Source of the DNA: Fischerella sp. CENA71
GTDB lineage: Bacteria > Cyanobacteriota > Cyanobacteriia > Cyanobacteriales > Nostocaceae
NCBI GenBank assembly: GCA_024239075.1
Contig: JANBVI010000055.1
Span: 124,001-188,000 of the forward strand
Direction: 5' to 3'
Length of the DNA: 64,000 nt
This document shows, piece after piece, positions 18,162 to 43,300 of the stretch (position 1 is the first letter of the stretch; each line of letters opens with the position of its first letter). A model generated the notes under the pieces. That model did no database searches, was not told the DNA's origin, and worked only from the letters and a program-made list of their open reading frames with translations. A program made the translations under genes and the position numbers.

Positions 18162-18167
18162 GCGGGG

Positions 18168-18311
18168 AATTGGGGAATTGGGGAATTGGGGAATTGGGGA
18201 ATTGGGGAATTGGGGAATTGGGGAATTGGGGACGCGGGGACGCGGGGACGCGGGGACGCGGGGACGCGGGGAATTGGGGAATTGGGGAATTGGGGACGCG
18301 GGGACGCGGGG
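18168..18311. repeat. Composite octamer minisatellite, 18 units
   Basis: Eighteen perfect head-to-tail octamers in blocks: AATTGGGG x8, ACGCGGGG x5, AATTGGGG x3, ACGCGGGG x2. The two units differ only in the first four bases, and the block order suggests duplication of mixed segments. It begins six bases after the stop codon of the upstream gene. Confidence 0.95.
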
Positions 18312-18320
18312 AATAACCAA

Positions 18321-18417
18321 TGACTATTGACTATTGACTATTGACTATTGACTATTGACTATTGACTATTGACTATTGACTATTGACTATTGACTATTGA
18401 CTATTGACTATTGACTA
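18321..18417. repeat. Heptamer tandem repeat (TGACTAT)x13.9
   Basis: Thirteen perfect TGACTAT units plus a partial fourteenth. On the opposite strand the unit supplies the TAG stop codon (18408-18410) of the cyclo-ligase gene, so the repeat has grown into the 3' end of that gene. Confidence 0.95.
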
Positions 18418-23577: not shown

Positions 23578-24435
23578 TCAATTTAGACCATAACGCTGAC
23601 AAAGGGTTTGGAGTTTTTCACAGAGGAGCGATCGCACGTTTTCTGGCGACACAATTACACAATCTGGTGCATACTGCATAACTTCGCGGATAAACCAAAA
23701 GGTACTAGATACACGCCTGATCACTCGCCGTACTCGTTGTTTATCTGGTAGCCATTCATTTAATATGTCTTCTGGTTTGGCTTGGTAAGCAAAGGCTAAA
23801 CCGTTAAATAAGTGCATTTCTACCTCTATTTGTGCCAAGTGCGATCGCCATTCACCAGCAATTGCGATCACAGCAGCGTCTTGGATTCTATCTAAACGCA
23901 GACTCCAGTTATTTCTTAACTCTTCTACATCCAAATTTCCTTGTGTCTCTTCGCACCAGCAATCAAGATATTGACGCTTTTCGTGGGGTGTAACTTTAGC
24001 ATAACGAACAGTAAAGTTCCATACTCGCTGTGCGGCGTCTTGATAGGAAAGCTGAAAGGGTTGTTCGCGTAGGATGAAGCGGTCAATCTCTAAACGCCAA
24101 GGTGGAGGTAAATTTTCTAAAAAACGCTCTATTTCAGTTCGCAGTGGGATTGATAGTTCACTGCGTTCGAGAAGCAGTTTGGCAATTTCTTGTGCTTGCT
24201 CATTTTGACCAATATCAGTTAATGCATGCATGGCTCGATCTAAGGCTCTCAGGCGTGTTTCTGACCAATCGTGATTTTTACCGATGGTTAACTGATGACG
24301 AGCGATCGCTTCTACTAGTTTAGAGATGTTTGGGCGATCGCCCCACATCATACCGAATTCTCGCGCTAGGTTTTCTAACTCGGCTTTATCGCGTTCTGAT
24401 ACCGATAGGGTGATGGAATGACCTTTTCGACTCAT
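23578..24435 (-). CDS. WYL-type transcriptional regulator of the type I-D CRISPR locus
   Basis: A 285-residue protein. The N-terminus MSRKGHSITLSVSERDKAELENLAREFG looks like a ribbon-helix or helix DNA-binding segment. The C-terminal half has a WYL-like core (ALDVEELRNNW... RVRRVIRRVSSTFWFIREVMQYAPDCVIVSPENVRSLL). It is divergent from cas3', exactly the position of the WYL-domain protein Sll7009 in the type I-D locus of Synechocystis 6803, reported there as a negative regulator of crRNA accumulation. By analogy it probably represses this locus. I chose ATG 24435, since the longer frame would run across the divergent promoter. Candidate operator copies flank its start. The WYL assignment is moderately secure. 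Confidence 0.8.
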   Translation of the reverse strand: MSRKGHSITLSVSERDKAELENLAREFGMMWGDRPNISKLVEAIARHQLTIGKNHDWSETRLRALDRAMHALTDIGQNEQAQEIAKLLLERSELSIPLRTEIERFLENLPPPWRLEIDRFILREQPFQLSYQDAAQRVWNFTVRYAKVTPHEKRQYLDCWCEETQGNLDVEELRNNWSLRLDRIQDAAVIAIAGEWRSHLAQIEVEMHLFNGLAFAYQAKPEDILNEWLPDKQRVRRVIRRVSSTFWFIREVMQYAPDCVIVSPENVRSLLCEKLQTLCQRYGLN

Positions 24436-24442
24436 TTTTATA

Positions 24443-24461
24443 CGGACACTTTTATATGGAC
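24443..24461. promoter_or_regulatory. Candidate operator A in WYL/cas3' divergent promoter
   Basis: CGGACACTTTTATATGGAC lies 8 bases upstream of the WYL gene start codon. Its first eight bases are repeated exactly 72 bases away at site B. Confidence 0.5.
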
Positions 24462-24514
24462 ATATCTTGCTAATCTCTATTTTGCGTGCCAAGATAGGAT
24501 TTAACAACAAATTA

Positions 24515-24538
24515 CGGACACTATTTAAGGATATGTCC
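24515..24538. promoter_or_regulatory. Candidate operator B overlapping the cas3' start
   Basis: CGGACACTATTTAAGGA, then TATGTCC. It shares CGGACACT and the following T-rich core with site A, ends in the inverted TGTCC, and covers the cas3' ATG at 24533. A bound regulator here could block initiation. Confidence 0.5.
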
Positions 24539-26728
24539 AATTACAGTATTTCGCTTAAGCCTGTATATTCTCAAACAGTACCCACACCTAACGGAGTTAA
24601 TTTACCCGATGGTTTATCACTTGTATGGCATCAAGTCGAAACATTAAAAGCTTTGCAACATCCAGACAATGATGTAGTTATTGACGTAGCAATGACGGGT
24701 GATGGTAAAACTCTAATTGCTTACTTACAATCACTGCAAGGAGAAACACCAGAAGGATTTTGTTATACTATTGCACTGTATCCAACTAACGAACTTGCGC
24801 GCGATCAGGAAGCTCAAGTTAAGAGATATATAGAGCAATTCAAGCCGAATAATGATCCACGTATCTCTAGGCTAAGTGGAGCAGAATTAGAAATTTATGC
24901 TGAAAGTGAAGGAATTAAAAAATGGGAAGCGATCGCAACCCGCATTCAAGAATCTGAAATTATCCAAACTAATCCTGATATTTTTCACTATCTTCATCAG
25001 CACGCCTACTTAACTCCTAAAGATAGCCCTAATAAGCTATGGAGTCCTTTAGATACTAAATTTGATTTATTTATCTTCGATGAATTTCATGTTTTTGCTG
25101 CTCCACAGATTGCCAGCGTTATTAATACAATGTTACTGATTCGCCATACCAATCGGCGTAAAAAGTTTTTGTTTCTTTCGGCTACACCAGATGAACAACT
25201 TATTGAACTTTTGCAAAAGGCGGGATTTAAACCACCTGTAGTGATAGATCCTGTTCAAAAAAATAAATATCAGTTTCCAGATACTTTAGAGCAAAGCCAA
25301 AAATTACAGGAAGATGGATGGCGACAGGTATCAAGACAAATTGAGTTGACATTTATTGAATTGGAACCTACTTATAAAGCTTCTGAAACTTGGCTTTGGG
25401 ATAACCGCTATACAATTTTAGAGCATTTTCAACGCCAACCTAATAGCAAAGGAGCAATTATTCTTAACTCAATTGCAGCAGTTAAGCGTTTAACTAAATT
25501 ATTTAGAGAATTTTTGCATCCTTTAAAAGTTGAAGAAAATACAAGCTTAACAGGCAAAACCAATAAAGATAAATCTCTAATAGCTGATTTAGTGCTAGGA
25601 ACAAGCACGATTGATGTAGGCGTTGATTTTAAAATTAATTTTCTTCTATTTGAATCAGCAGATGCAGGAAGCTTTATTCAACGATTAGGTAGATTAGGAA
25701 GACATGACAGTTATGAAAAAGAAGATGGAAATAAGTTTATCTTTGATAACTTTACTGCTTATGCGCTAACTCCTAAATTTTTAGTAGAAAAGTTATTTAA
25801 GGGAGATCAGCCACCATTAGAACCCAATAGCATTTATGATCGTCCGTATTTCCACAACCAAATCCGCGATAAATATCGTCAAATTAATAATTTTCGAGCA
25901 TATTACCGACGATGGGCAGGTGTGCAATCAGTCCTGCTTAGTAGTAATCAAGGATTGAATCATAAAACAATTAGATCAGAATATGCAGGTAGTCGGGAAG
26001 CATTTATCAAAGATTGTCAACAAGTATTTGGAACTAGCTTAGGTAAAGTAAGAGGTTGCATCAAAAAATGGAAGGAAGAATGGCAAGAGCTTTCTGGTAA
26101 TAAAACAGGAAATCCCATTGCTGAAGATGCTTCTAGCTTTCGGGGTTCTAGTGGATTGCAGTGTAGTTTGTATGATTTGACAGAAAAAAATATTGCAGAC
26201 AGGTTTAAAACGTATGAATTACCTGGAATTCTGAGCAATTTAGAAATTGAGCCAATCACAGAAGTAGAGTTTATGCGACGGTTGCGGGAAACAACGGAAC
26301 GCATAAATCAACCAATTCCCAAGGGAAGATTTGAACACTGTTTGGCGTTTATGGAGTTAAAGGATTACAGGGAAGAAAGATTAAACTGGCGGTTCACGTA
26401 TTCAGGAGACTTGAGAGCGATCGCAGATTCTGCAAAAGTACAAGTTTTGTTAGGGGTTCAGGTTATGCAAGAACCCGCTACTCGCTGGATTTACGCAATC
26501 AACAAGCGTTTGAAAGAAAGAGGTTTGGTTAGCTACATTATTCAGATGCAAGTGGACGAGGCAAAAAAATGTCTACAGCTACCAATGCACTTTCAAATTT
26601 ATCCTATTGATGAGGCTGGTAGAGATGATGCAGCAGCCTACTCTGTCGCTTTTGGTCAGTCAGCTTTACTCTTAGATACTCTAGCCTGTCGTCGCAAGAG
26701 TTCAGGGGGCGAAGCATGGATTTGTTGA
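24533..26728 (+). CDS. cas3: Type I-D CRISPR-associated helicase Cas3'
   Basis: The superfamily 2 helicase of subtype I-D; its HD nuclease partner is located in Cas10d. 731 residues: Walker A MTGDGKT (54-60), motif Ia ALYPTNELARDQ, motif II FIFDEFHVF (DEFH in place of DEAH), motif III FLSATP, and motifs V-VI TIDVGVDFKI and QRLGRLGRH. No HD domain is present, as expected for I-D. ATG 24533 gives MSNYSISLKP; an earlier start would enter the divergent regulator. It is the first gene of the effector operon. Its stop codon lies within a degenerate CRISPR-repeat-like sequence. Confidence 0.95.
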   Translation: MSNYSISLKPVYSQTVPTPNGVNLPDGLSLVWHQVETLKALQHPDNDVVIDVAMTGDGKTLIAYLQSLQGETPEGFCYTIALYPTNELARDQEAQVKRYIEQFKPNNDPRISRLSGAELEIYAESEGIKKWEAIATRIQESEIIQTNPDIFHYLHQHAYLTPKDSPNKLWSPLDTKFDLFIFDEFHVFAAPQIASVINTMLLIRHTNRRKKFLFLSATPDEQLIELLQKAGFKPPVVIDPVQKNKYQFPDTLEQSQKLQEDGWRQVSRQIELTFIELEPTYKASETWLWDNRYTILEHFQRQPNSKGAIILNSIAAVKRLTKLFREFLHPLKVEENTSLTGKTNKDKSLIADLVLGTSTIDVGVDFKINFLLFESADAGSFIQRLGRLGRHDSYEKEDGNKFIFDNFTAYALTPKFLVEKLFKGDQPPLEPNSIYDRPYFHNQIRDKYRQINNFRAYYRRWAGVQSVLLSSNQGLNHKTIRSEYAGSREAFIKDCQQVFGTSLGKVRGCIKKWKEEWQELSGNKTGNPIAEDASSFRGSSGLQCSLYDLTEKNIADRFKTYELPGILSNLEIEPITEVEFMRRLRETTERINQPIPKGRFEHCLAFMELKDYREERLNWRFTYSGDLRAIADSAKVQVLLGVQVMQEPATRWIYAINKRLKERGLVSYIIQMQVDEAKKCLQLPMHFQIYPIDEAGRDDAAAYSVAFGQSALLLDTLACRRKSSGGEAWIC

Positions 26729-26830
26729 AAGTATCATCCCTGATAGGGATTGTAAGTAACAGGACGGAGAAGCTTACGCCAGTAAGTTCAGACGTATTTA
26801 TTTCAATCCCTGATAGGGGTTATAAAAGCT
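26724..26830 (+). ncRNA. Degenerate CRISPR repeat-spacer-repeat unit between cas3' and cas10d
   Basis: Two repeat-like segments lie 70 bases apart, one array period. The first (26724-26760, 37 bases) begins GTTGAAAG, has core ATCCCTGATAGGGATTG and ends TAAC. The second (26794-26830) has core ATCCCTGATAGGGGTT. The functional array repeat, also 37 bases, begins GTTGCAAC, has core ATCCCTATTAGGGATTG and ends AAAC. A 33-base spacer-like sequence (26761-26793, AGGACGGAGAAGC...) lies between. This layout matches the psi-repeat/psi-spacer organisation of Cas-regulating RNAs (CreR) and CreTA antitoxins in type I loci. The first copy overlaps the cas3' stop codon. Transcription is unproven. Confidence 0.5.
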
Positions 26831-26854
26831 TGCAGTTGATGCAAGTCTTAGTCC

Positions 26855-26873
26855 GTCCATATATAAAAGTACC
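26855..26873. promoter_or_regulatory. Candidate operator C upstream of the small ORF and cas10d
   Basis: GTCCATATATAAAAGTACC. Its complement, GGTACTTTTATATATGGAC, aligns with site A (GGACACTTTTATATGGAC) with a two-base insertion. It suggests that a second promoter in the locus answers to the same regulator. Confidence 0.4.
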
Positions 26874-27010
26874 ACATCACAACACCCAGCCATTAGGTTT
26901 TGACATATTCAACTGTTAAATAAATCTGAACTTTATTTTGATAAGCGATCCCTTGACCTGCTACTGAGACAAGTGTTAGCGTTTGACCAACACTCTATTA
27001 GGAGGAGTAA

Positions 27011-27205
27011 ATGAATAAAAAAGAACGCATACGCCAACTTTTGCTTGACGGACAGCCTCACTCAGCAGAAGAACTTGTACCCATAACTTGGAGATTCAAT
27101 GCTGTTATTGATTCACTCCGCAAAGATGATGGATACAACATTAAAACTATTCGGGTTGCTCATAACGTTTACGTTTACCAAATGATAGTAGAGCAAACTG
27201 CCTAG
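27011..27205 (+). CDS. Small winged-helix-like protein between cas3' and cas10d
   Basis: A 64-residue protein: MNKKERIRQLLLDGQPHSAE is followed by ITWRFNAVIDSLRKDDGYNI and KTIRVAHNVYVYQM. This reads as helix, helix-turn-helix and a beta wing, like small ArsR/BirA-type DNA-binding domains. It has an excellent ribosome binding site (GGAGGAG, 5 bases before the ATG). A short inverted repeat, AGTGTT (26972-26977) with AACACT (26989-26994), lies just upstream and may be its operator. It is not part of the standard I-D gene set. It may be a locus regulator or an independent passenger. Confidence 0.65.
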   Translation: MNKKERIRQLLLDGQPHSAEELVPITWRFNAVIDSLRKDDGYNIKTIRVAHNVYVYQMIVEQTA

Positions 27206-27388: not shown

Positions 27389-27436
27389 TTCCTGCTCAAT
27401 TCAAGCAATTTAAATTAATCTAATTGGAAGTTTAAA

Positions 27437-30400
27437 ATGGCTAAAAAACCTGGAAATGCAAAACCAGAACAACTGGATTTATTCAGTTATGAAGAAGAAA
27501 CGGATTTACAAGACCAATTAGATGAAGATTTTTTAGAAGACGAAAATGAGGATCAAGATGAAGATTTAGGTTTTGGCTTTGGCACTTCTAGCCGTGATGT
27601 TTCTATTGAGCGAGAATTACTGACACTCAAGCTCTTAAGAGAGGCTATTTTAACTCAAAATCCTGATGATGAAATTATGGCAGATTTTGCCAACCACGTT
27701 TTACCAAATTTGCTACGAGTAGCTATTGGTGTGACTGCTAAAGGCGGTAAATGGATTGAGAATAAAGAACAGGAGCTAGAAGCATTAGGAGAAACTTTAG
27801 ACAGACGTAATGCAGGCGATCAATCTCTCAATACTCACTTACTCAATGGCTTATTTCCTGCAAATTTAATTGAACAACGTCTAGAAAAGTTAGATACCAC
27901 AGTTAAACGAGTTATTCGTGAGACAGAAAGACGTTTGTTAATTGCATCTTTTATTTTACATGATTTTGAGAAGTTTGATTATGATAGATTTCCAGAAATG
28001 CCACAAAAATATAAAAATCTTCAAAAAGATAAAAAACAAAAAATTCGTGATTTATCCATATTAGAGCATCGAGAAATTATTGATGTAATTATTCGTTATT
28101 TGAAACTAGACTATTTAATTAATCCACAAGATGACCATAAATATCGAGAGTATCTTGATGATATACTTTGTACTGCTTATAATACCCAAAGAAGATGGGA
28201 TACAAACTGGAATTTTTCAGAACATAGCGAATTAAAACCGAAATTAAAAGGTGATAAGTTAGTTTGCCTTGCTGCATTAGCTTGTCTTGCTGATCGATTG
28301 GCATCTATTATTAAACATCCAAAAGATGCTTTAAAATCAGGTATCAATAATATTGTAGGTCAACTTAGTAATAGACAATTAAAACTGAGCTATCACAGTA
28401 TTGCAGAAAATCGTGGTGTGTTAACTAATGTCGTAAATAATGCACTAATTGATGCACATAAAGATTTTAACACAGAGGAAAATACACATTACGAACCATT
28501 ACTTTACCTACCTACAGGAGTAATCTACCTAACACACCGCAACGCTCCACCTGTAAAACTTGAAAGCATACCAGAAAGAGTTGTTGAAAATATTAAATCA
28601 CTTTGTGCAGGTGAACTTAAAGCCAGACAAACAGGATTTAGTCGTGATGGTAAAGGCATAAAATATGCCGATTACTACAGTTTATTTTTCGATACTCCAG
28701 AATTAATGCAAGTTGCCTTAAAAGCAACCAAACGAATATTGAAAGACGGAAAACAACCTGTTTCTCAAGACCGGAGTCATAATTTAATCAAATTTCAGAA
28801 GCAAAATATTTTATCATCTGCTTACGATTTTAAATTTGATAATGATATCCGGATAGATCAAATTGCGGAATTTGGTGATTTAGTTAGTCGAAAAATTTGG
28901 GGAGAAAGAGTTAAAAAGATTGAGGATGTACGTAAACAACGTCAGAATGAGCGTAAAAAAAATAAAGCCTTACCAGAAATACCTGCAATAGATTTAGTCG
29001 CAGAAGATTTAATTTGTAAAGTTGCTGAATTTTGGAATCTATCTGAATATATACCTGTAATTAGAGAAATTCAACGAATTAATGAAACTTTAAAGGAACA
29101 CAAACTCAAAGGTAATACAGGGGGTGTACCCTATGAATGGTATTTTTTAGCTGCAAAATACCTACAAAAACACCCAGGTATTGAGGATGTTCGTCCAGTG
29201 TGTGAGGAAGTAATCGCCCATATTTCTCAAATTATTGAACCTATTGCTACTCAGTATGTATTACCTGATGGTTGGGATGATTTACGAGTTTGGGTGACAA
29301 AGGTTATCATGCTACCGGAGACAGGGGAAAATTGCTTACTACCTTACAAATTTTTAGAGGAGTTTGAATCTTATAAAGCAGCTAAGAAAAATGGTAGAGG
29401 AAGGCAATTAATCTGTTCTATCTCTCACTCTTCATATACAGTCACAGAACAGATGGAATCAGCAGTCTTATTTGCTCCTCAAGTTTATACTAATAAACAA
29501 ATGTTAGGAGGTTCTAACGCTAAACGTAATATTTCTAGTATCGCTGGTATTGAAATCATGTTGCGACAGATTTTAATGAGTCAAACCCAAGCAAATGGAG
29601 GAAGGTTTGAGGATGCTAAATATAGATATCTATACTTTTATCCAACCTATTACTGCACTCCTGAAACAAACGCCTTTTTACATAAAGCTTATGACAATAT
29701 TAAACAAACTCGCTTTGATACTGGAGTTCGTAATCATTTTATTAGTAAAGATTTGACAGCTAACTTTGGACTAGGACGCTATCAAAATGCTGATTTATTC
29801 TATATAGATGAAAGCTCAGGCAAAAGAAATGAGCGCACATTCAAACTTTCTTACCCCAACAAACAACCTCTAACATTTTACTTCATGGCTTTACCTCCAG
29901 AAGTTAGAGGCAAAGATAAAAAACCTACAGATACAGAGTCTTGGATCATGCCAGCTTGGTTATCATTTGCATTTCCGATGATTCTGGACGTAAAAACAGT
30001 AGTTTCAGAATCTCCAATTCCACCATTTACAGATGGGGCAGAATTTGAAGAAAGCGTATTTCTTGATAGTGCGCCGCAAGCATTTAGAGTGTTATTAAAA
30101 GAGCAGCGTTTTCGCCTTGATTATATCTTAGAAGGTTGGAAGCACAAAGAAACTAATAAGCAATATCCATCACCGTTAAATCTCTTAACAGCAGCTTATG
30201 CTATTCATTTAGATGTTCATTCTAAACAAAGTAAAACTGGCTATGACCCTAACTGGGGTAAGTTTAGTGAGCTTGCAAAAGACTTTGAGACAAGTCCACT
30301 TTATATTTTCGCTTATTTGAATGAGTGGGTACGTAAGCAAAAAATAGATGCCCCAAGCATTAATAAAGTCAAACTTTATGCTTATCACTTTTATCCTTGT

Positions 30401-30934
30401 TTTGACCCTGATACAAAATTTGATTCTATTAAAGAGGAATTAATTGTGGGAGAAGAATCTAGTTTGAACCATCCTAAGAAATTAATGGAACTTTATCGCC
30501 GATTTTATCGAGCCAAATCTAGTAAAGGAAAACCAATTAAATCCAATGCTATCTTGAAACCAATTGATGAAGCAGCAGATACTATTATCAAAGCTGACAA
30601 AGAAGTTTTCAAAGGTGAAGTGTTAGTTGATGCTGTAGCAGCTAAGATTTTCAAATTAATGGAGAGAGTTCGTAACTCAACAGCAGAAGGACGTTGGGTT
30701 ATTGCTCATCGTGATGAAGAAAGAGATGCAATTTTAGATTTTGCACGATACTTTGTTTTAGAAGTTTTTGAAAAATCTTTTGCGGGCGACCGCGCTCGTT
30801 TATCAGGTCGTCAACTTAACCTCATAAAAGACACTTGTGAATTTCTATATCGTCTAGAGAATGATAAGGAACGCCGTGAGAAAGCTAATAAGTCTAATGA
30901 TGATATTTCATATGATAGTGAGGATGAAGATTAA
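27437..30934 (+). CDS. cas10d: Type I-D effector large subunit Cas10d (Csc3)
   Basis: The large subunit of the I-D Cascade, carrying the HD nuclease that pairs with Cas3'. 1165 residues. An acidic N-terminal tail (about 20-45) precedes the HD motif FILHDFEKFDYDRFPEM (H175, D176). Further conserved regions include KLVCLAALACLADRLASI and the basic stretch KKIEDVRKQRQNERKKNKA. No GGDD cyclase motif is seen, as normal for Cas10d. Length is slightly above usual because of the acidic N- and C-terminal tails. ATG 27437. A 113-base gap separates it from csc2 on the same strand. Confidence 0.94.
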   Translation: MAKKPGNAKPEQLDLFSYEEETDLQDQLDEDFLEDENEDQDEDLGFGFGTSSRDVSIERELLTLKLLREAILTQNPDDEIMADFANHVLPNLLRVAIGVTAKGGKWIENKEQELEALGETLDRRNAGDQSLNTHLLNGLFPANLIEQRLEKLDTTVKRVIRETERRLLIASFILHDFEKFDYDRFPEMPQKYKNLQKDKKQKIRDLSILEHREIIDVIIRYLKLDYLINPQDDHKYREYLDDILCTAYNTQRRWDTNWNFSEHSELKPKLKGDKLVCLAALACLADRLASIIKHPKDALKSGINNIVGQLSNRQLKLSYHSIAENRGVLTNVVNNALIDAHKDFNTEENTHYEPLLYLPTGVIYLTHRNAPPVKLESIPERVVENIKSLCAGELKARQTGFSRDGKGIKYADYYSLFFDTPELMQVALKATKRILKDGKQPVSQDRSHNLIKFQKQNILSSAYDFKFDNDIRIDQIAEFGDLVSRKIWGERVKKIEDVRKQRQNERKKNKALPEIPAIDLVAEDLICKVAEFWNLSEYIPVIREIQRINETLKEHKLKGNTGGVPYEWYFLAAKYLQKHPGIEDVRPVCEEVIAHISQIIEPIATQYVLPDGWDDLRVWVTKVIMLPETGENCLLPYKFLEEFESYKAAKKNGRGRQLICSISHSSYTVTEQMESAVLFAPQVYTNKQMLGGSNAKRNISSIAGIEIMLRQILMSQTQANGGRFEDAKYRYLYFYPTYYCTPETNAFLHKAYDNIKQTRFDTGVRNHFISKDLTANFGLGRYQNADLFYIDESSGKRNERTFKLSYPNKQPLTFYFMALPPEVRGKDKKPTDTESWIMPAWLSFAFPMILDVKTVVSESPIPPFTDGAEFEESVFLDSAPQAFRVLLKEQRFRLDYILEGWKHKETNKQYPSPLNLLTAAYAIHLDVHSKQSKTGYDPNWGKFSELAKDFETSPLYIFAYLNEWVRKQKIDAPSINKVKLYAYHFYPCFDPDTKFDSIKEELIVGEESSLNHPKKLMELYRRFYRAKSSKGKPIKSNAILKPIDEAADTIIKADKEVFKGEVLVDAVAAKIFKLMERVRNSTAEGRWVIAHRDEERDAILDFARYFVLEVFEKSFAGDRARLSGRQLNLIKDTCEFLYRLENDKERREKANKSNDDISYDSEDED

Positions 30935-31047: not shown

Positions 31048-32082
31048 ATGTCATTTCTAAAAATAACTGACTCAAAATTCTTCCATGATGCAATTCCCTA
31101 CAAACCGATGGGTAAATATGCCCATTTTCTCACCATCCGCATTACCGAATCTTACCCGCTATTTCAAACAGATAGTGAATTGAATAAAGCACGGGTAAGG
31201 GCTGGAGTCAAAGATAGAAACACAATTAGCCGTCTGTCGATGTTCAAGCGTAAGCAGTCAACACCAGAACGTTTAGTTGGTCGGGAATTACTGCGGAATT
31301 ACGGTTTAATTACTGCTGAAGAATGTGAATATAATGTAGCTTTTGCTATGGATAATCCTGATTGTATTATTTACGGCTTTGCTATTGGTGATTCTGGTTC
31401 TGAAAAATCAAAAGTTGTTGTAGATACAGCATTCTCTATCACAGCATTTGATGAGTCACATGAAATATTTACTCTTAATGCTCCTTATGAAAATGGAACA
31501 ATGGCAGCAAAAGGAGAAAAGAAATCTGATGGCAAATTAGATGGAGAAATAGGTACAGTTACCGCTAGGATTAACCAGCAAGATCATATCCTACCTCAAG
31601 TTTTCTTCCCTAGCATTGTCACCCTCAAAGACCCCACAGAAGCAAGCTTCCTTTACGTTTTTAATAATATTTTGCGTACACGCCATTATGGAGCGCAAAC
31701 AACCCGCACAGGGAGGGTGAGAAATGAGTTAATTGGGGTTGTATTTGCTGATGGAGAAATTACTAGTAATTTGCGTTGGACTCAAGCAATATATGACCAT
31801 ATGAAAGCGAATAATTCTTTAAAGTCTCCTGATCCTTTGGATGAAGATGAAGTAATTACTGCTGCTAAAAATGCCATTGAAACTTTAATGTCTGAAGAAT
31901 TCATTGTCCATACTGACTTTATTGGTGATGCTTTTGAGCCTCTATTGCAAGAAGTGAAAAACCTCACTGCGAACGAAACAGGAATTAAAAGCATTTTACA
32001 AAAAGCTGATGCTGAAGCTAAGGCTTATGCGAATAAACACATTAGTAAAAAGAAAACTGCTGCTAAAGCGGGGAAAGAGTGA
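31048..32082 (+). CDS. csc2: Type I-D Cascade backbone protein Csc2 (Cas7d)
   Basis: The Cas7-family subunit that coats the crRNA in the I-D effector. 344 residues with the family text AIPYKPMGKYAHFLTIRITESYP, the loop region RNTISRLSMFKRKQSTPERLVGRELLRNYG and LRTRHYGAQTTRTGRVRNELIGVVFADGE. ATG 31048 has a CTGGAGAC ribosome binding site nine bases upstream. Its stop overlaps the start of csc1 (TGATG), so translation is coupled. Lys/Ala-rich C-terminal tail. Confidence 0.96.
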   Translation: MSFLKITDSKFFHDAIPYKPMGKYAHFLTIRITESYPLFQTDSELNKARVRAGVKDRNTISRLSMFKRKQSTPERLVGRELLRNYGLITAEECEYNVAFAMDNPDCIIYGFAIGDSGSEKSKVVVDTAFSITAFDESHEIFTLNAPYENGTMAAKGEKKSDGKLDGEIGTVTARINQQDHILPQVFFPSIVTLKDPTEASFLYVFNNILRTRHYGAQTTRTGRVRNELIGVVFADGEITSNLRWTQAIYDHMKANNSLKSPDPLDEDEVITAAKNAIETLMSEEFIVHTDFIGDAFEPLLQEVKNLTANETGIKSILQKADAEAKAYANKHISKKKTAAKAGKE

Positions 32083-32792
32083 TGGTATTGATTTACCGTT
32101 GTCAATTAGAATTGCACGACAGCCTTTATTATGCCACGCGTGAAATTGGCAGATTATACGAAACAGAGCCAGTAATTCATAATTACGCTCTCTGTTATGC
32201 ATTAGGATTAGTTGATAGCGAAAAATATTCAACAAACGTCCCTGAAAAAGATTCCTACCGCTACTTTTGTCCCGAACAAGTGCCAAAATACGAGGAACAT
32301 TTAACGCCGCTAAATCAACAGGGAATCTACATTACACCAGCGCGATCGCTTAATCATACTGCCATTCTCAACACTTGGAAATATGCAAATAACAACTATC
32401 ATGTTGAGATGGAAAAAACCCAAAAAAACATTCCTAGTTTTGGTAGAGCCAAAGAAATTGCACCCGAAAGTCAATTTGAGTTTTTTGTGATTTCTCAAAA
32501 AGACATCAAAGATTTGTTACCAAAATGGATTCGCTTGGGTAAATGGATGAGTAAAGCTGAAGTCACAGTTCAACAATTACTAAAATTCAAAGTTAATGAA
32601 GGTATATTCACTTGCACTCATCCTTTAAATCCTTTGGATGTCATGTTCACTAATCAAGTGATTAGTTATGATGTGGTAAATATGCCTCCAGTTAGCCTCA
32701 TTCAAAATGTGCAAATGCGGGGACAATATTATTATCTTGAGGATATAAAAGAACAAATTCCTGTGCAAATGGTATATCGTTTTAGAAATTAA
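32082..32792 (+). CDS. csc1: Type I-D Cascade protein Csc1 (Cas5d)
   Basis: The Cas5-family subunit that binds the 5' handle of the crRNA. 236 residues starting MVLIYRCQLELHDSLYYATRE and containing the family block EPVIHNYALCYALGLV and a C-terminal MPPVSLIQNVQMRGQYY. The ATG at 32082 overlaps the csc2 stop (TGATG). Its stop codon directly abuts, base for base, the stop of the opposite-strand gene at 32793. Confidence 0.95.
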   Translation: MVLIYRCQLELHDSLYYATREIGRLYETEPVIHNYALCYALGLVDSEKYSTNVPEKDSYRYFCPEQVPKYEEHLTPLNQQGIYITPARSLNHTAILNTWKYANNNYHVEMEKTQKNIPSFGRAKEIAPESQFEFFVISQKDIKDLLPKWIRLGKWMSKAEVTVQQLLKFKVNEGIFTCTHPLNPLDVMFTNQVISYDVVNMPPVSLIQNVQMRGQYYYLEDIKEQIPVQMVYRFRN

Positions 32793-33197
32793 TCACTTCC
32801 CAAAACCGGAACTACGTTTTCTTTTCTTCGCTGATGCTTGCGCCAGCAACTCTGCACTAAAACCTCCTTGATGTTCCAACATCAATTTGCGGGTGCGCTG
32901 GCGTTGGTATTTCTGCACCTCAGTGGCGAGGGGATGAATGGAATCAATATTGAGATGAGTAATGGAGATAACATAACGTTCTTCTTCTTCTGGATTAGAT
33001 GCTAAAACACACATAATCCCACCCATATCTCCAGAATATTTCACATCTTCAATCAAAAATTCTTTGTTAGGATTTGCTACCTCTCCTCGTTCTTTTAAAG
33101 TTTTGAGAAACTCTTTTCCCGCGCGTGCTTTAATTGGTAAGCTTTCTTGCAATTTTTCTGTTAGGGCAACTGCTGCATCATAATCGTCAATAATCAT
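32793..33197 (-). CDS. Opposite-strand gene of unknown function inside the cas operon
   Basis: A 134-residue protein, unrecognised. N-terminus MIIDDYDAAVALTEKLQESLPIKARAG; then an alpha/beta-looking middle part with GDMGGIMCVLASNPEEEERYVISITHLNID; and a C-terminus that is basic and helical (QKYQRQRTRKLMLEHQGG, AKKRKRSSGFGK), suggesting nucleic-acid binding. It has a strong ribosome binding site (AAAGGAGAAATATAG-ATG). It is convergent with csc1 (stops touch at 32792/32793) and divergent from cas6 by 45 bases. Synechocystis-type I-D operons lack a gene here. It could be a regulator, an accessory Cas protein or a passenger. Confidence 0.75.
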   Translation of the reverse strand: MIIDDYDAAVALTEKLQESLPIKARAGKEFLKTLKERGEVANPNKEFLIEDVKYSGDMGGIMCVLASNPEEEERYVISITHLNIDSIHPLATEVQKYQRQRTRKLMLEHQGGFSAELLAQASAKKRKRSSGFGK

Positions 33198-33242
33198 CTA
33201 TATTTCTCCTTTGATGATTTTTTCCTAATTTCAAAGCATCTC

Positions 33243-34094
33243 ATGCCACACAGTCTTGTTCTCAATCTGATTCCCCAGTCTCCGATTTACCCTAATTATC
33301 TTACTGGTAGACATTACCACGCGCTATTTTTAAATCTTGTTAGTTCGGTAGATAAAAAATTGGGTGATTTACTCCACGACTCTAGCGCCGATAAAGCTTT
33401 TACTCTTTCTCCGTTACAAGTACAAACAAGTTACACAGGTAATGGTAGTGGCAAGCGAGGATATTCTAGCCACAAAAATTACATTTTGCAATGGGAACAA
33501 AATAAACCAATTGCTCCAGGTACTCCGTGTTGGTGGCGTATCTCTCTGTTAGATGACGCTTTATTTAGTCAACTCACGCCACTGTGGCTAAATATTAATC
33601 CCGAACATGCTTGGCACTTAGGTTCTGCGGATTTGTACATCACTAGTATTCTCGGTACTCCCCAATCAACTCAACCTTGGGCTAATGCTTGTACTTATAA
33701 ACAATTATACGAGCAAGCCTCAGAGAGCGATCGCACAATTTCCCTTACCTTTTCCACACCTACCGCCTTCCGTCAAGGTAAATATGATACTACTTTACCT
33801 ACTAGAGAATGTGTATTTAATTCTTTACTAGCGCGTTGGAATAAATATAGTGGAATTGAGTTTGACAATATTTCTCTTGATGCGATTTTTCCCAGTTTTG
33901 TTAATATTCATACTGAAATGTTAGCTGATTCTCGTAGTAAGTTTATTGGCATTATTGGAGAAGTGAATTATCGAATTTTAGGAGAAGCTGAACCCATCAC
34001 AATTAAGCAAATTAATACTTTAGCTGATTTTGCTTTATATGCCGGCGTTGGAAGAAAAACAACCATGGGTATGGGTATGACACGCAGAATTTAA
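33243..34094 (+). CDS. cas6: CRISPR pre-crRNA endoribonuclease Cas6
   Basis: Cleaves pre-crRNA within each repeat. 283 residues of RAMP fold, with N-terminus MPHSLVLNLIPQSPIYPNYLTGRHYHALFL, a central FTLSPLQVQT, and the terminal glycine-rich loop GVGRKTTMGMGMTRR that marks Cas6. A His in the first 30 residues (GRHYH) is a plausible catalytic residue. A 450-base gap to csc1 is filled by the reverse-strand gene, so cas6 either needs its own promoter or reads through from csc1. cas4 follows after 25 bases. Confidence 0.94.
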   Translation: MPHSLVLNLIPQSPIYPNYLTGRHYHALFLNLVSSVDKKLGDLLHDSSADKAFTLSPLQVQTSYTGNGSGKRGYSSHKNYILQWEQNKPIAPGTPCWWRISLLDDALFSQLTPLWLNINPEHAWHLGSADLYITSILGTPQSTQPWANACTYKQLYEQASESDRTISLTFSTPTAFRQGKYDTTLPTRECVFNSLLARWNKYSGIEFDNISLDAIFPSFVNIHTEMLADSRSKFIGIIGEVNYRILGEAEPITIKQINTLADFALYAGVGRKTTMGMGMTRRI

Positions 34095-34119: not shown

Positions 34120-34713
34120 ATGAACAATACAGAATATATTCCGATTGCGGCATTAAATCAATATGCTTATTGTCCGCATCGCTGTTGGCGGATGTTTTGT
34201 GCAGAAGAATTTGTTGATAATCAATACACAATTGAGGGTACAAGTTTACATGAGCGTGTGCATACTTTAGGAGAGGGAAATCGGGAAGAAACTTGGCAAG
34301 TTCGAGCAATTTATTTGAAATCCGAAAAATATCAATTAATTGGTAAATCAGATTTAATTGAATTAGAAAATGGTGAATGGTATCCCGTGGAATATAAACG
34401 AGGACGTAAAGGTGAATGGGATAACGACGAGTTGCAAGTATGCGCCCAAGCTTTGTGTTTAGAAGAGATGACTGGCAAACCAGTCACTACTGGATATATT
34501 TATTATGCCCACTCTCATCAACGTCAATTAGTGGAGATTTCAGAAGAATTAAAACAAAGTGCGATCGCCACAATTAAATCAGTACAAAATCTTATAGCAA
34601 CTGGCTTCATGCCAATAGCAACCGATAGCAAACGTTGTCAACAATGCAGTTTTTATCAACAATGTTTACCGCAAATTGCAGAAAAAGTTAGGCGATATGA
34701 AGAAGGAGAATAG
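34120..34713 (+). CDS. cas4: CRISPR-associated Cas4 nuclease
   Basis: A RecB-family iron-sulphur nuclease that trims prespacers and selects the PAM end during adaptation. 197 residues. Cluster cysteines: C18 (NQYAYCPHRC), then C173, C176 and C182 (RCQQCSFYQQC). The nuclease core GKSDLIELENGEWYPVEYKRG provides the Asp, Glu and Lys of the RecB motifs. It lies between cas6 and cas1 in the adaptation block. Confidence 0.95.
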   Translation: MNNTEYIPIAALNQYAYCPHRCWRMFCAEEFVDNQYTIEGTSLHERVHTLGEGNREETWQVRAIYLKSEKYQLIGKSDLIELENGEWYPVEYKRGRKGEWDNDELQVCAQALCLEEMTGKPVTTGYIYYAHSHQRQLVEISEELKQSAIATIKSVQNLIATGFMPIATDSKRCQQCSFYQQCLPQIAEKVRRYEEGE

Positions 34714-34772
34714 GTAAAAAATTGAGATAACAAAAATATTTTTTATTCATTTCATTAATTTCGGAGTCAAGC

Positions 34773-35777
34773 ATGGGTACAGTATATATCACACAAGAAG
34801 ATGCATTTATTGGTAAAGTTGATGAAAGGCTCAACGTTAAATATGAGAAAAACACAATTTTAGATGTGCCATTAATCAAAATAGATGGTTTGGTAGTAAT
34901 GGGAAGGGCAAGTATTTCACCTGCTACTGTTGCTGAGTTAGTTAATCACAAAATTCCTTTAACTTTTTTGACAAATAACGGTAAATATATAGCCCGCTTA
35001 GAACCAGAAATGAGTAAGAATATTTTTCTGCGTTCTGCCCAGTGGAAAGCTGTGGGAGAATCAACACAAGCTATTCATATTAGCAAAGGTTTTGTCCGAG
35101 GAAAATTAAAAAACTATCGTTATTCTCTCCTAAAATCACAACGTAGTTACTCTGATTTAGATTTGAATGGAGGACTAAATAAATTAGCAACTGCGATCGC
35201 AAATCTCGATCAAGCTACATCTATTGATTCTATCCGGGGTTTAGAAGGTGCTGGGAGTGCGGCGTATTTTGGTTGTTTTAATCAACTGATTCGCGTTGAT
35301 AATTTTCAATTCCACACTCGCAACCGTCGTCCCCCTACTGATCCTGTCAACTCTTTGTTGAGTTTGGGCTATGCATTATTATGTCATGATGTGCAAAGTG
35401 CAATTAATATTGTTGGCTTCGATCCATATTTAGGATATCTACATACAGAGCGTTATGGAAGACCATCATTAGCACTAGATTTAATGGAAGAATTTCGTCC
35501 TGTAATTGTTGATGCAGTAGTTTTAGCTGCTATTAATCGTCGCATTCTTTCACCCACAGATTTTATTACTGAACCAGTTAGTAATGCAGTTTCTCTTACG
35601 AAGGAAGGGCTACATAAATTTTTACGACTTTATCAAGAAAAGAAGCAAACAAAGTTTAAACATCCCGTCATGCAAAAGCAATACACTTATCAAGAATCCT
35701 TTGAACTACAAGCAAGATTACTGGCAAAATACCTCATGGGCGAAATTGAAAAATATCCACCATTGGTAATGAAGTAA
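34773..35777 (+). CDS. cas1: CRISPR integrase Cas1
   Basis: The catalytic subunit of the Cas1-Cas2 spacer integrase. 334 residues. Expected active-site surroundings: Glu in SIRGLEGAGSAAYFGCF, His in YLGYLHTERYGRPSLALDLMEEFRP, and Asp in the same block. The N-terminal beta domain opens MGTVYITQEDAFIGKVDERLNVKY. The sequence type fits subtype I-D Cas1. It is separated from cas2 by 81 bases containing a tandem repeat. Confidence 0.97.
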   Translation: MGTVYITQEDAFIGKVDERLNVKYEKNTILDVPLIKIDGLVVMGRASISPATVAELVNHKIPLTFLTNNGKYIARLEPEMSKNIFLRSAQWKAVGESTQAIHISKGFVRGKLKNYRYSLLKSQRSYSDLDLNGGLNKLATAIANLDQATSIDSIRGLEGAGSAAYFGCFNQLIRVDNFQFHTRNRRPPTDPVNSLLSLGYALLCHDVQSAINIVGFDPYLGYLHTERYGRPSLALDLMEEFRPVIVDAVVLAAINRRILSPTDFITEPVSNAVSLTKEGLHKFLRLYQEKKQTKFKHPVMQKQYTYQESFELQARLLAKYLMGEIEKYPPLVMK

Positions 35778-35786
35778 TTTGTTTAG

Positions 35787-35820
35787 TTGGTCATTTGTCA
35801 TTTGTCATTTGTCATTAGTT
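35787..35820. repeat. Heptamer repeat between cas1 and cas2
   Basis: About four units of TTTGTCA-type (TCATTTGTCATTTGTCATTT) between the cas1 stop and the cas2 start, followed by C-rich TCTCCC text. The usual tight cas1-cas2 spacing has been widened by it. Confidence 0.8.
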
Positions 35821-35858
35821 ATCCTCCCCATCTCCCTTCCCTTGTCCTCTATCTCCCC

Positions 35859-36131
35859 ATGTTTATTGTTGTCAGTTACGATATCCCGGAAGATAAACGT
35901 CGTACCAAAATTCATAAAGTTCTTAAGTCTTATGGACAGTGGATGCAGTATTCTGTATTTGAGTGCAATCTAACGGAAACCCAGTATGCTAAACTAAGGG
36001 CGCGGTTGGCAAAACTCATTAAAGCCGATGAAGACAGCATCCGCTTCTATTTTCTTTGTGCTTGCTGTCAGGGTAAAATTGAGCGTATTGGCGGCGAAAT
36101 GCCAATGGATATTACAGTGTTTTTTGCTTGA
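35859..36131 (+). CDS. cas2: CRISPR-associated Cas2
   Basis: The small dimeric scaffold of the integrase. 90 residues from ATG 35859: MFIVVSYDIPEDKRRTKIHK, then GQWMQYSVFECNLTETQYAKLRARL and CACCQGKIERIGGEMPMD. Both the ferredoxin fold pattern and length fit. Longer in-frame starts would translate the upstream repeat and are rejected. It is the last cas gene, about 250 bases before the array on the same strand. Confidence 0.96.
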   Translation: MFIVVSYDIPEDKRRTKIHKVLKSYGQWMQYSVFECNLTETQYAKLRARLAKLIKADEDSIRFYFLCACCQGKIERIGGEMPMDITVFFA

Positions 36132-36385: not shown

Positions 36386-37112
36386 GTTGCAACTAACATT
36401 AATCCCTATTAGGGATTGAAACTTAAATCCCACCACTTCAAGCTTTTTAGCAATTGTTGCAACTAACATTAATCCCTATTAGGGATTGAAACCATTTGTT
36501 CTTCTAAATTGAACACAGCACGGGCCAGATTTGTTGCAACTAACATTAATCCCTATTAGGGATTGAAACGCTGTAAATATCGCTAAGAATGAGCGATCGC
36601 ACTACGTTGCAACTAACATTAATCCCTATTAGGGATTGAAACAGATTGCAGACATCCTATCACGTGGCATTCACAGTTGCAACTAACATTAATCCCTATT
36701 AGGGATTGAAACGGAATCCAGTAGTAGTATTGATTGGTGCATAGGGTTGCAACTAACATTAATCCCTATTAGGGATTGAAACAATTTAGATGCGACTGTC
36801 AAAGCTGAGGTTGAACAAGTTGCAACTAACATTAATCCCTATTAGGGATTGAAACAGCAAGCCCAACTGACTCTATGTACTCAGGCAAAGGTTGCAACTA
36901 ACATTAATCCCTATTAGGGATTGAAACCCTGTGTAGTGCGGTCGTAGACGTACGTCGAAGCGTTGCAACTAACATTAATCCCTATTAGGGATTGAAACAG
37001 CATCGTTTTTTAAGCACGACGACTGTCAAGTAGTTGCAACTAACATTAATCCCTATTAGGGATTGAAACTTCTTTCTATATTTAGAATATTACATCAATA
37101 CAAAGTTGCAAC
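36386..37112 (+). CRISPR. Type I-D CRISPR array, 10 full repeats plus a truncated eleventh
   Basis: Ten identical 37-base repeats (starting GTTGCAACTAAC, core ATCCCTATTAGGGAT, ending GATTGAAAC) begin at 36386, 36456, 36533, 36606, 36676, 36746, 36819, 36891, 36962 and 37033. Spacers 1-9 are 33, 40, 36, 33, 33, 36, 35, 34 and 34 bases. A tenth spacer (37070-37104, 35 bases) is followed by only the first eight bases of a repeat (GTTGCAAC, 37105-37112), where a family A palindromic repeat takes over. Orientation follows the leader and cas genes. No spacer matched this window by eye. No degenerate terminal repeat is present, consistent with loss of the original distal end. Confidence 0.98.
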
Positions 37113-40324: not shown

Positions 40325-43300
40325 CTATTTTGTCGCCCCGTCAGGGTAAACAGAGGAAACATCAATAGTTTTGAGTAGTTCACCGTCTAGGTTCCAAAGT
40401 TGAATCGTTCCATCCCGACTGGAAGTAGCTATCACCTCACCATCAGGACTAAAGCTCACGTTAAAAACTTGGTCAGAGTGTCCGTCCAAAGACTTAATTT
40501 GTTTACCTTTAAGATTCCAAAGTTTAGCTTTTTTATCTTTGCTGGCTGTGGCAATCATGTTACCATCTGGACTAAAACTAATGTCGTAAATTCTATCTTC
40601 ATGTGCTTGGAAAGCATTAATTTCTTTACCTTCTCGACTCCAAAGCTTTACTTCTCCCGTCCAATCTGCTGTAGCAAATATCTTTCCGTTGGGACTAAAA
40701 CTTATACTATCAACTTGGTTATCTTGAGAATTTTTAAACCCCGTCAGCGTCTTGATCTCTTTACCGTCTCGGCTCCATAATTTCACAGTTTTGTCTTTGC
40801 TTGTAGTAGCAATTATTTCACCATCTGGGCTAAACGTTACACTTGTTACCGTGTCTTTATGCCCTTGCAGGGTATTAATTACTTGACCATTACGATTCCA
40901 TAGTTTAACAGTTCCATCTTGGCTGGCTGTAGCAATAGTTTTACCATCCGGGCTAAAGGCTACTCCCCAAACGTTATCTTTATGCCCATTCAGCCTCTGT
41001 AGTTCTTGACGGTTGAAGGTCCAAAATTTAGCAGTTTTATCGAATCCAGCGCTAGCAATGGTTTTACCATCTGGGCTGAAAACAACTTGATTCACTTGTC
41101 CATTGTGTCCTGTCAGAGATGGTTTAAGTTCTTCAGCATTGAGGTTCCAAAGTCTAACTGTCTTATCAAAACCAGCACTGACAATAGTTTGACCATCTGG
41201 GCTAAAATTAACACTACTGACCTCATCAGTGTGTCCTTTGAGGGTTTTTAGTTCCTTGCCCTCTAAACTCCAAAGCTTGATAGTTTGATCGCGGCTACCT
41301 GTAACCAGCATCTTACCATCTGGACTAAAGCTGACGCTGTTAACTGCATCTTGATGGCCTCTTAATATTTTCTCCTGTCTATCTTTGAGGCTCCAGAGTC
41401 TGACTGTTTTATCCCAACTTGATGCTGCAATAGTCCTTGCATCTGAACTAAAAATGACAGTGTTTAGTCCACCATCGCTCTTATCAGCAGGTGCTGGAAC
41501 CTTAAATGGTGGTTGAAGCAGCTTACCGTCTCGGTTCCAAAGCCTAACCGTACCATCTTTACTGGCAGAAGCAATCATTTTACCATCTGGACTGAAGCTG
41601 ACACTATAAACCCAGCCTTTATGTCCTTCTATGGTTTTTAGTTCTTGCCCCTGAAGATTCCAGAGTTTGATAGTTTTATCAAAGCTTGCAGTGGCAATTG
41701 TTTGGCTATCTGGACTAAAGCTGACGCTAGCTACAAGACCTCTATGTCCTTCCAGGGTTTTTAGTTCTCTCCCCTCACGACTCCAGATTTTGACAGTTTT
41801 ATCAGCACTAGCAGTAGCAATTAACTGATTATCTGGGCTAAAGCTCACACTCCAAACTTCATCTTGATGTCCATCTAGACGATTTTGCTCTCTAACTTGA
41901 AATAATGCCCATTGCAGAGCTTTCTGTGCTTGTTTCCATGTTTTATCGTTAGGCTCTACCTGAATTTGCTTTGTTAGAATTGGTTCCGCTGCCCTCATTG
42001 CTGAAAGTAAGGCATCAAAGGGCTGACCAGAATTTCTCAGTACATTAGACGATTGACTCAGAGCATTAACTTGGTCTTCTAAAGCGACAACTGCTGCTTG
42101 TCTAGATAACCAAGCTATACCAGCAGCCGCTGAAATAATCGTAAAAATAGTGCTAAGTGTAAAGATGGTAATGTTTCTACGCCGATGCCGGAGTGTAATA
42201 CTTTGCTTAATAAATTCCTGTTCTTCTCTACTCAATTCCAGGCATCTGTCTCGTAGCCAGTTTTCTGCTTCGATTAAAAATTTTCCTCGTAGTAAACCTG
42301 CATCATCCCTATTATTTTTTTTCCATTCGATGATCGACGATCGCAGCTTTTCTTGCCAGGTACGAAACTCTCGATCAAGATCCAGCCAAATTCTTAAGCG
42401 TGACCATTTCTCAATCAGTGCTTCATGCACAATCTCCACAATTTCTTCTTCGATTAATTTCTCGTTTGTGTCAAAAACTAAGTGATTATTAGTTGTGACA
42501 AGCCGAACATTGGCTAAATGTTGAATTAAATCCCAATTTTCTTCACCTAACTGCCTACGATTTGCTATTCGTCTAGTATCTGGGGTTCCTTCTCTTGGGT
42601 GTCCTGGACGTACAAGTTGAACAAAGATGCGTCTGACTCGTTCTTTTTGTTCTTCATTGAGTTGCTCGAATACCTGATCTGCATAGTGAGCGATCGCTTC
42701 TTTGATTCCTCCCAACTCTTTGTATGCGTTGTGTGTTAACTGAGCATCTCGTTGTTTTTCCCATAGCTGCGTGAGAGTAAACTCCACCAAAGGCAAATAT
42801 CCTGGTTCCATCGCCTTGCCATTTGGCATAATCTCTTCTAACATCAACTCTGTCAAGCTGGGTTCAATTCCTACACCAAATAATTTGGCGGGTTGAGTAA
42901 TCGCCTGCTCCAACTCTAAAGGATTCATTGGGCCAAGCATTTGATCGGCAACAGGGATAACATCAGCAAAAGAGCGATCGCTGAGGGCATAACCAAGAAA
43001 GTCAGCTCGCAAAGTCAGCACCAAAGTCAGATGTAAATGGTAGCGATTAACAGTTTTAACTACTGCTAATAGTCGCTCTAAAAAGCTCTGACACTCCTGC
43101 TTGGAGCAAAGCGTATAAAGTTCCTCAAATTGATCGATCACCATTAATAAGCGAGTGCCTGGATTTTTCCAAATAATCCTTTCAATCGCATCTCGCAAGG
43201 CTTCTGGCTCTTGTTGCAAGTCAATTGCTAGCTTGCGAGTCTCCCTGAGTCGATCATTTTCACTTTCTAGATGTGGTTCTAAACACCGCATTAGTTCAAA

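Follow-up and report, generated by a model that had tools for sequence, protein, structure and literature searches.

In the type I-D CRISPR-Cas locus of Fischerella sp. CENA71, two repeat-like units lie 70 bp apart between cas3' and cas10d, and the question raised by this locus is what they encode. A sequence-only reading had noticed the pair and proposed a CreR/CreTA-type RNA on the plus strand. The paired units are real: the core ATCCCTGATAGGG is present at 26736 and 26806. The window analysed here is a stretch of 64,000 nucleotides, and all positions are counted from its first base unless a locus is named.

The type I-D locus

Profile matches identified cas3', cas10d, csc2, csc1 and cas6, the gene set of a type I-D locus. 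The features around the gap were as follows.

23578..24540, minus strand: WYL/WCX-type regulator, divergent from cas3' (PF25583 above cut-off, WYL below)
24467..26728, plus strand: cas3', type I-D (TIGR03158, E = 1.7e-110)
27437..30934, plus strand: cas10d/csc3 (TIGR03174, E = 5.8e-286)
31048..34094, plus strand: csc2 (31048-32082), csc1 (32079-32792) and cas6 (33243-34094)
34120..36131, plus strand: cas4, cas1d and cas2
36386..37069, plus strand: type I-D CRISPR array of 10 repeats, repeat GTTGCAACTAACATTAATCCCTATTAGGGATTGAAAC

Genome G000 has more arrays with this repeat core, on contigs C63 (7 matches) and C78 (25 matches).

Strand and register of the mini-array

The 17 defined bases of the repeat 3' core TCCCTnnnAGGGATTGAAAC were scored on both strands in the window and in 78 related loci, plus-strand scores being listed only from a threshold of 13 upward. 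The right unit of the window matched at 15/17 bases on the minus strand versus 13/17 on the plus strand, and in many relatives both units scored 17/17 on the minus strand versus 13-15 on the plus strand where the latter reached at least 13. The left unit of the window, taken alone, favours the plus strand (15/17 versus 12/17), which is what misled the sequence-only reading. Its 37-nt frame, psi-spacer and compensated dyad all followed from the wrong strand. The GTTG...AAC segment at 26724 that had been taken for a repeat has its hairpin displaced by 4 nt from the repeat register, and the apparent compensation in the dyad comes from reading the opposite strand: taken from the minus strand, the stem has stayed the same (TCCCTATCAGGGA versus TCCCTATTAGGGA), with one loop base as the sole difference. 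A psi-spacer beginning AGGACGGAGAAG on the plus strand was rejected on the minus-strand cores of the relatives; the minus-strand psi-spacer begins AAATACGTCTGAACTT. The corrected parts, in their order on the minus strand, are listed below.

26866..26874, minus strand: putative extended -10 TGGTACTTT of the mini-array promoter
26800..26836, minus strand: right (5') psi-repeat, 37 nt, handle ATTGAAAT, 15/17 core matches
26767..26799, minus strand: psi-spacer, 33 nt, AAATACGTCTGAACTTACTGGCGTAAGCTTCTC (26799 down to 26767)
26730..26766, minus strand: left (3') psi-repeat, stem intact, handle degenerate in this genome, 12/17 core matches

Two degenerate repeats around one psi-spacer, the structural plan of CreTA, are present in the window. 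The right psi-repeat is identical to the array repeat at 26 of 37 positions (counted by eye). The core of the left psi-repeat, at 12/17 in the window, reaches 17/17 in many relatives, and the first 28 nt of the psi-spacer are identical in L051, L052, L059, L069 and others.

Conservation and sampling

A Cas10d match was found in 154 of the 218 genomes of the family. From the group of higher identity 78 loci were taken, together with 20 of the 34 loci of a group at ~50% Cas10d identity and, outside the family, 20 of the 30 genomes with a Cas10d match. With the window, the same-family type I-D loci of higher identity number 79. The right psi-repeat was found on the minus strand 40-220 bp past cas3' in 67/79 loci, giving, by sequence, the repeat-derived ends of a crRNA-like element as in CreR. 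The psi-repeat of L111 was taken by hand at 1050 bp, and those of L112 and L124 were also taken by hand. Within the searched range it was not found in 12/79 loci; among these, the stretch of L089 is without cas3', and L074, L083, L098 and L128 have only the unit adjoining cas3'.

A psi-repeat with a target (at least 9/10 seed matches) was found in 10/20 loci of the ~50% clade, with none found in the other 10/20, and in 12/20 loci outside the family, where in 2/20 the repeat-like unit had no target and in 6/20 none could be found. For the loci of these two samples the scan also used the array repeat of the locus itself, a choice biased towards psi-repeats resembling it. Among 84 further loci, 47 were repeats of earlier loci, 3 were without cas3', 1 had a gap of <60 bp and 33 were new named or plasmid loci; the new loci comprised 19 with psi-repeat and target (at least 8/10), 7 with a repeat-like unit only and 7 with nothing. 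Carriers include Nostoc sp. 106C, Trichormus NMC-1 and Picosynechococcus PCC 7117, in which the element is on a plasmid. The cas3-cas10d gap of the model strain Synechocystis 6803 is only 13 bp, which may be the reason that no such element has been noticed in that strain.

Both hairpins, whose conservation the sequence-only reading had asked to see, are kept in relatives. Many species share the position, the orientation and the psi-spacer, to an extent that, judged from the sequences compared, exceeds chance. The psi-repeat also tracks the stem of the local array, with CGGGAYTGAAAY in L154 and L162 and CCCTTTTAGGGATTGAAAC in L166 and L109 (by eye).

A partial target ahead of the next gene

A partial match within the locus, also called for by the sequence-only reading, was found once the minus-strand psi-spacer was used. 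It lies on the far side of the right psi-repeat, ahead of a small open reading frame.

26915..26917, plus strand: GTT PAM of the target
26918..26950, plus strand: target protospacer AAATAAATCTGAACTTTATTTTGATAAGCGATC, matching psi-spacer positions 1-5 and 8-16
26953..26982, plus strand: putative promoter, TTGACC (26953-26958), 18 nt, TAGCGT (26977-26982), by eye
27011..27205, plus strand: winged-helix-like ORF of 64 codons with AGGAGGAG upstream, first gene past the target and upstream of cas10d

Within the first 17 positions, guide and target of the window mismatch at 6, 7 and 17. A search of the whole genome (7.47 Mb) found the 19-base target pattern GTYAAATANRTCTGAACTT at a single place. A longer pattern with GG at positions 20-21 had no match across the genome, so the pairing would be short. 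The putative promoter resembles one in L053 (TTGACA-N17-TAGCGT, by eye); it was not listed by a consensus promoter scan of the window.

Seed matching and PAM across loci

The PAM of type I-D is given as GTN in the available text of PMC10212523. Seed matches were scored over psi-spacer positions 1-11 without position 6, at least 8/10 being required, in the ~260 bp past the right psi-repeat. Matches with a GT PAM were obtained in 58/67 loci, versus 0-6/67 for each of the 15 other dinucleotides; seeds shuffled in 200 trials gave matches in at most 5/67 loci of this first set. In a second set of 44 further loci the counts were 41/44 for GT, 0-3 for the other dinucleotides and at most 4 for shuffles. 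As in CreR, these partial, PAM-flanked matches lie near promoters, the promoters being assigned by eye. The idea of a CreR/CreA-type psi-repeat/psi-spacer RNA in subtype I-D is supported by the comparison of loci in both sets, while the strand, register, psi-spacer, seed and compensation first proposed for it have all been replaced.

The nine loci of the first set without a GT-PAM seed match were L061, L062, L063, L080, L087, L097, L110, L112 and L127. In L112 a GTC site lies farther out than the searched range, and in L062 and L063 a minus-strand stretch matches 21 and 22, respectively, of 25 counted psi-spacer positions, with AAT at the place of the PAM. The site listed for L095, one of the 58, is an artefact inside the repeat and was excluded from the position profile; L207, flagged as a duplicate and with a gap of equal length, has a GTT site of score 8. 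At the best sites the third PAM base was T in 31 and C in 26 (n=57), and T in 24 and C in 17 in the second set (n=41). Second sites with a GTA PAM were two, in L133 and L141.

Positions 12-19 played no part in the selection of sites. Among 46 distinct guide-target pairs, positions 13-16 matched in 39, 41, 38 and 32, position 12 in 15, position 17 in 19, position 18 in 4, position 19 in 34, and positions 20-30 in 3-18 each. The 41 pairs of the second set gave 9 matches at position 12, 33, 30, 30 and 30 at positions 13-16, and 23 at position 17; positions 18 and 19 matched in only 10 and 9, so that position 18 is uninformative there. Position 6 was left out of the seed score, which explains part of its low matching. 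According to the available passages of PMC10212523, type I-D Cascade flips out every sixth base; position 6 is exempted from the seed in one passage, while another words the flipping as 'starting at position one', which differs from the dips seen here at 12 and 18. These dips appear to match what is predicted for type I Cascade pairing, and the 46 and 41 distinct pairs would form a collection of natural guide-target pairs with mismatches that fit such pairing.

Direction of transcription and RNA fold

Transcription of the mini-array from the minus strand is supported but not proven by the sequence signals. An extended -10 of the form TGNTANNNT, a pattern picked after the sequences were viewed, is found ahead of the right psi-repeat in 32/67 loci for the minus strand and in 2/67 for the plus strand (shuffled sequences averaged 5.5, with 11 as the highest count). 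In the window, the minus-strand RNA is predicted to be more stable than 200/200 shuffles (z -3.85). A terminator-like hairpin at 26845-26829 on the minus strand, past the putative promoter and ahead of the right psi-repeat, would hinder the transcript if real; it is at chance level (1 found in the scan, 0.7 expected).

In window positions 26760-26860 the right psi-repeat is flanked by GGACGGA and TCCGTCC, which are able to pair in the minus-strand RNA. The TCCGTCC at ~26852-26858 had also been considered as a target and was rejected by eye, being without a GTN PAM in the window; it fits better as an RNA stem of the minus-strand transcript. Across loci, the longest leader/psi-spacer complement averaged 6.15, versus 5.37 for swapped and 5.28 for shuffled pairs. 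This is modestly above the controls and is taken as a lead only.

Eleven further loci were fetched in which the winged-helix ORF lies outside the type I-D gap. In 6/11 a minus-strand unit is found ahead of the ORF, followed by a terminator-like hairpin and a T run (by eye); both units scored at least 14/17 in 4 of these six, and in 2 the left unit was assigned by eye. Outside the gap, L169, L173, L174, L176, L177 and L179 combine minus-strand unit(s), a terminator-like end, the winged-helix ORF and toxin-antitoxin-like genes. A target with a GTC PAM was seen by eye in L169, L173 and L174, and the genome of L174 has a Cas10-like match ~4 kb further on.

The gene slot behind the target

The 64-codon ORF of the window matched the PADLOC profile 'HTH' (PDLC01152, E = 3.1e-8; 4.3e-27 for its homologue in L073), and a search with Pfam and NCBIfam gave no match. 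In the L162 homologue two winged-helix Pfam models were matched below cut-off. No relative was found among solved structures (best E = 0.7). A winged-helix-like fold is suggested by sequence profiles. The family, aligned as A3, is present in 39/218 family genomes. PADLOC 'HTH' may be linked to type VI retrons; a literature search for this link found nothing. Ten ORFs from relatives and that of the window were without a Pfam match to a KilA-N-type domain.

The class of the psi-spacer changes in step with the family of the target gene in 73/80 loci, by motif rules set by hand after the data had been seen. Winged-helix-like ORFs occur with [AG]AATAnGTCTG (30/32), QLELFD-type ORFs with TTCCGnTGCTG (11/11), coiled ORFs with three classes (21/22), NxKTY ORFs with theirs (2/2) and MHIHLNDDD ORFs with ACTGTnGCTTT (9/10). 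In the remaining 7/80, the two loci of one small class were split between families and five were without assignment. Two target sites were found in 27/32 loci of class A/B, 1/37 of classes C-I and 8/10 of class J. In class A/B loci (for example L053, L065 and L069) the sites are in tandem ~26 bp apart, or inverted with the PAMs facing. At 15 loci with sites on both strands, the complex might act on two divergent promoters. In a locus of the ~50% clade, the target gene L142:3853-4356 has a RAMA match just below the Pfam cut-off (E = 3.2e-8, 33.9 versus 35.2 bits).

In the window cas10d follows the small ORF directly on the same strand; in many relatives other genes intervene. Those between the target ORF and cas10d in L053 are DUF433, YhcG nuclease, nucleotidyltransferase and HepT-like genes, and toxin-antitoxin genes are often found at this place in relatives (partly by eye). 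A promoter-like site at 27409-27438, just before cas10d, is at chance level (1 found, 1.9 expected in the scan); cas10d may have its own promoter.

Proposed mechanism and alternatives

Taken together, the observations suggest that cyanobacterial type I-D loci carry a Cascade-guided repressor of the CreR/CreA type. The reading that we prefer, to which a probability of about 0.8 is given, is that the minus-strand mini-array yields a Cas6-processed guide with which type I-D Cascade blocks transcription of the next gene from a partial match. The sequences themselves show the conserved mini-array, its PAM-flanked seed match with dips at positions 12 and 18 and, in examples, psi-repeats that follow the array repeat; that Cas6 processes the RNA, that Cascade binds and represses, and that transcription continues past the small ORF into cas10d is what we infer from them. 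Cas6 of the locus would cut the minus-strand RNA into one crRNA-like guide, expected to be ~70 nt long, possibly trimmed, and to begin with ATTGAAAY followed by AAATACGTC. Cascade carrying this guide would bind the incomplete, PAM-flanked match ahead of the next gene, with pairing ending before the full protospacer, and transcription would be blocked. From the target promoter the small winged-helix-like ORF would be transcribed and probably also the cas10d operon that follows; the outcome would then be Cascade-dependent autorepression of the effector unit combined with control of the small protein, abundant Cascade limiting its own synthesis. Against this stand, in the window, the seed mismatches at 6 and 7 and the degenerate left handle; read-through into cas10d is weakened by the intervening toxin-antitoxin genes and by the promoter-like site at 27409-27438.

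The main rival shares this machinery and differs in purpose. In an addiction of the CreTA/CrePA type the small ORF, or its RNA, would be toxic, guided Cascade would silence it, and loss or inhibition of Cascade would release it, the locus holding interchangeable guarded toxins. This is a possibility to be taken seriously, though we would not bet on it. Five apparently unrelated small-protein families, separated by eye and motif rather than by a pairwise test, supply the first gene past the target and change in step with the psi-spacer class; the toxin-antitoxin-like genes in the gap of L053 point the same way, as do the CreT and CreP precedents in the consulted portions of PMC8501985 and PMC12737573. 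The winged-helix-like ORF of the window, however, has no KilA-N or other toxin domain, 5/11 of its outside-gap relatives are without a nearby pair of repeat-like units, and in G006 one such relative lies ~4 kb from a Cas10-like match, as a regulator might. A related proposal, possible but less likely than not, is that of a swappable slot for a guarded gene: the antisense mini-array would aim Cascade at whichever small protein occupies the slot, and loss of Cascade would release this effector. If true, the toxin-antitoxin genes behind the effector would be released too, giving a multi-family, RNA-guided protein addiction or an anti-CRISPR alarm.

The remaining explanations do without guided repression from the minus strand. 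That the AAATAnGTC-like sites are operators of the winged-helix ORF or of the WYL-type regulator, with their likeness to the psi-spacer secondary, is improbable. In its favour, class A/B usually has two sites, inverted or in tandem (27/32 versus 1/37 in C-I), and a winged-helix-like target gene; against it, GT is preferred over 15 other dinucleotides at the PAM, matching shows dips at 12 and 18 and ends only around positions 16-19, and the sites vary between classes in step with the psi-spacer. A functionless remnant of a decayed array could account for the degenerate left psi-repeat of the window and for the array with a similar repeat ~9.6 kb away; the recurrence of the antisense position after cas3', of psi-spacers and of PAM-flanked targets (58/67, 41/44) makes such a remnant very unlikely. 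Least credible of all is the plus-strand CreR with psi-spacer AGGACGGAGAAG. It is favoured by the left unit of the window and opposed by the 17/17 minus-strand cores at both units in many relatives, by the possible pairing of GGACGGA with TCCGTCC in the minus-strand RNA, and by targets that fit the minus-strand psi-spacer, the only psi-spacer with which the target search was done.

Relation to known systems

Autorepression by CreR is known for types I-B, I-E and V-A according to the accessible part of PMC13131331. The Cascade-guided repressor preferred here would share with CreR, as described there, a repeat-derived guide and a partial match to a promoter within the cas locus. It would differ in belonging to subtype I-D, in a mini-array that is antisense to cas3' and adjoins it, and in having a small-protein gene first past the target, often with two target sites. 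Two divergent psi-repeats, one psi-spacer and a seed-limited promoter match are also features of archaeal type I CreA/CreTA in the excerpts of PMC8501985, and a type I-F CreA/CreTA case appears in the abstract of PMC10097628. CreTA has an RNA toxin, CreT, whereas the target gene here is a conserved protein ORF. Cascade-guided control of a protein gene would fit CrePA, in which a protein toxin is repressed by CreA (sections of PMC12737573); unlike CrePA, no KilA-N domain was found here, and several different small proteins take its place. A partial search of the literature, including portions of PMC11656645 and PMC10651486, found no type I-D cases of such RNAs.

If the preferred reading is true, several cyanobacterial families would have Cascade-guided self-regulation in subtype I-D, a type I/III hybrid, and an account would be offered of the unannotated cas3'-cas10d stretch in, for example, Picosynechococcus PCC 7117. 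Shmakov et al. (NAR, 2023) reportedly describe CRISPR-derived RNA regulatory elements in which mini-arrays are directed against the promoters of cas8 or of cargo, toxin-antitoxin genes among it, and that work may already include type I-D mini-arrays.

Other repeats in the window

Elsewhere in the window, tandem tracts of GGGGAATT/GGGGACGC and TGACTAT units occupy 18162-18417. Repeats are also found at 40380-41851, several of them at a spacing of 123 nt, within a large minus-strand ORF (40325-44638).
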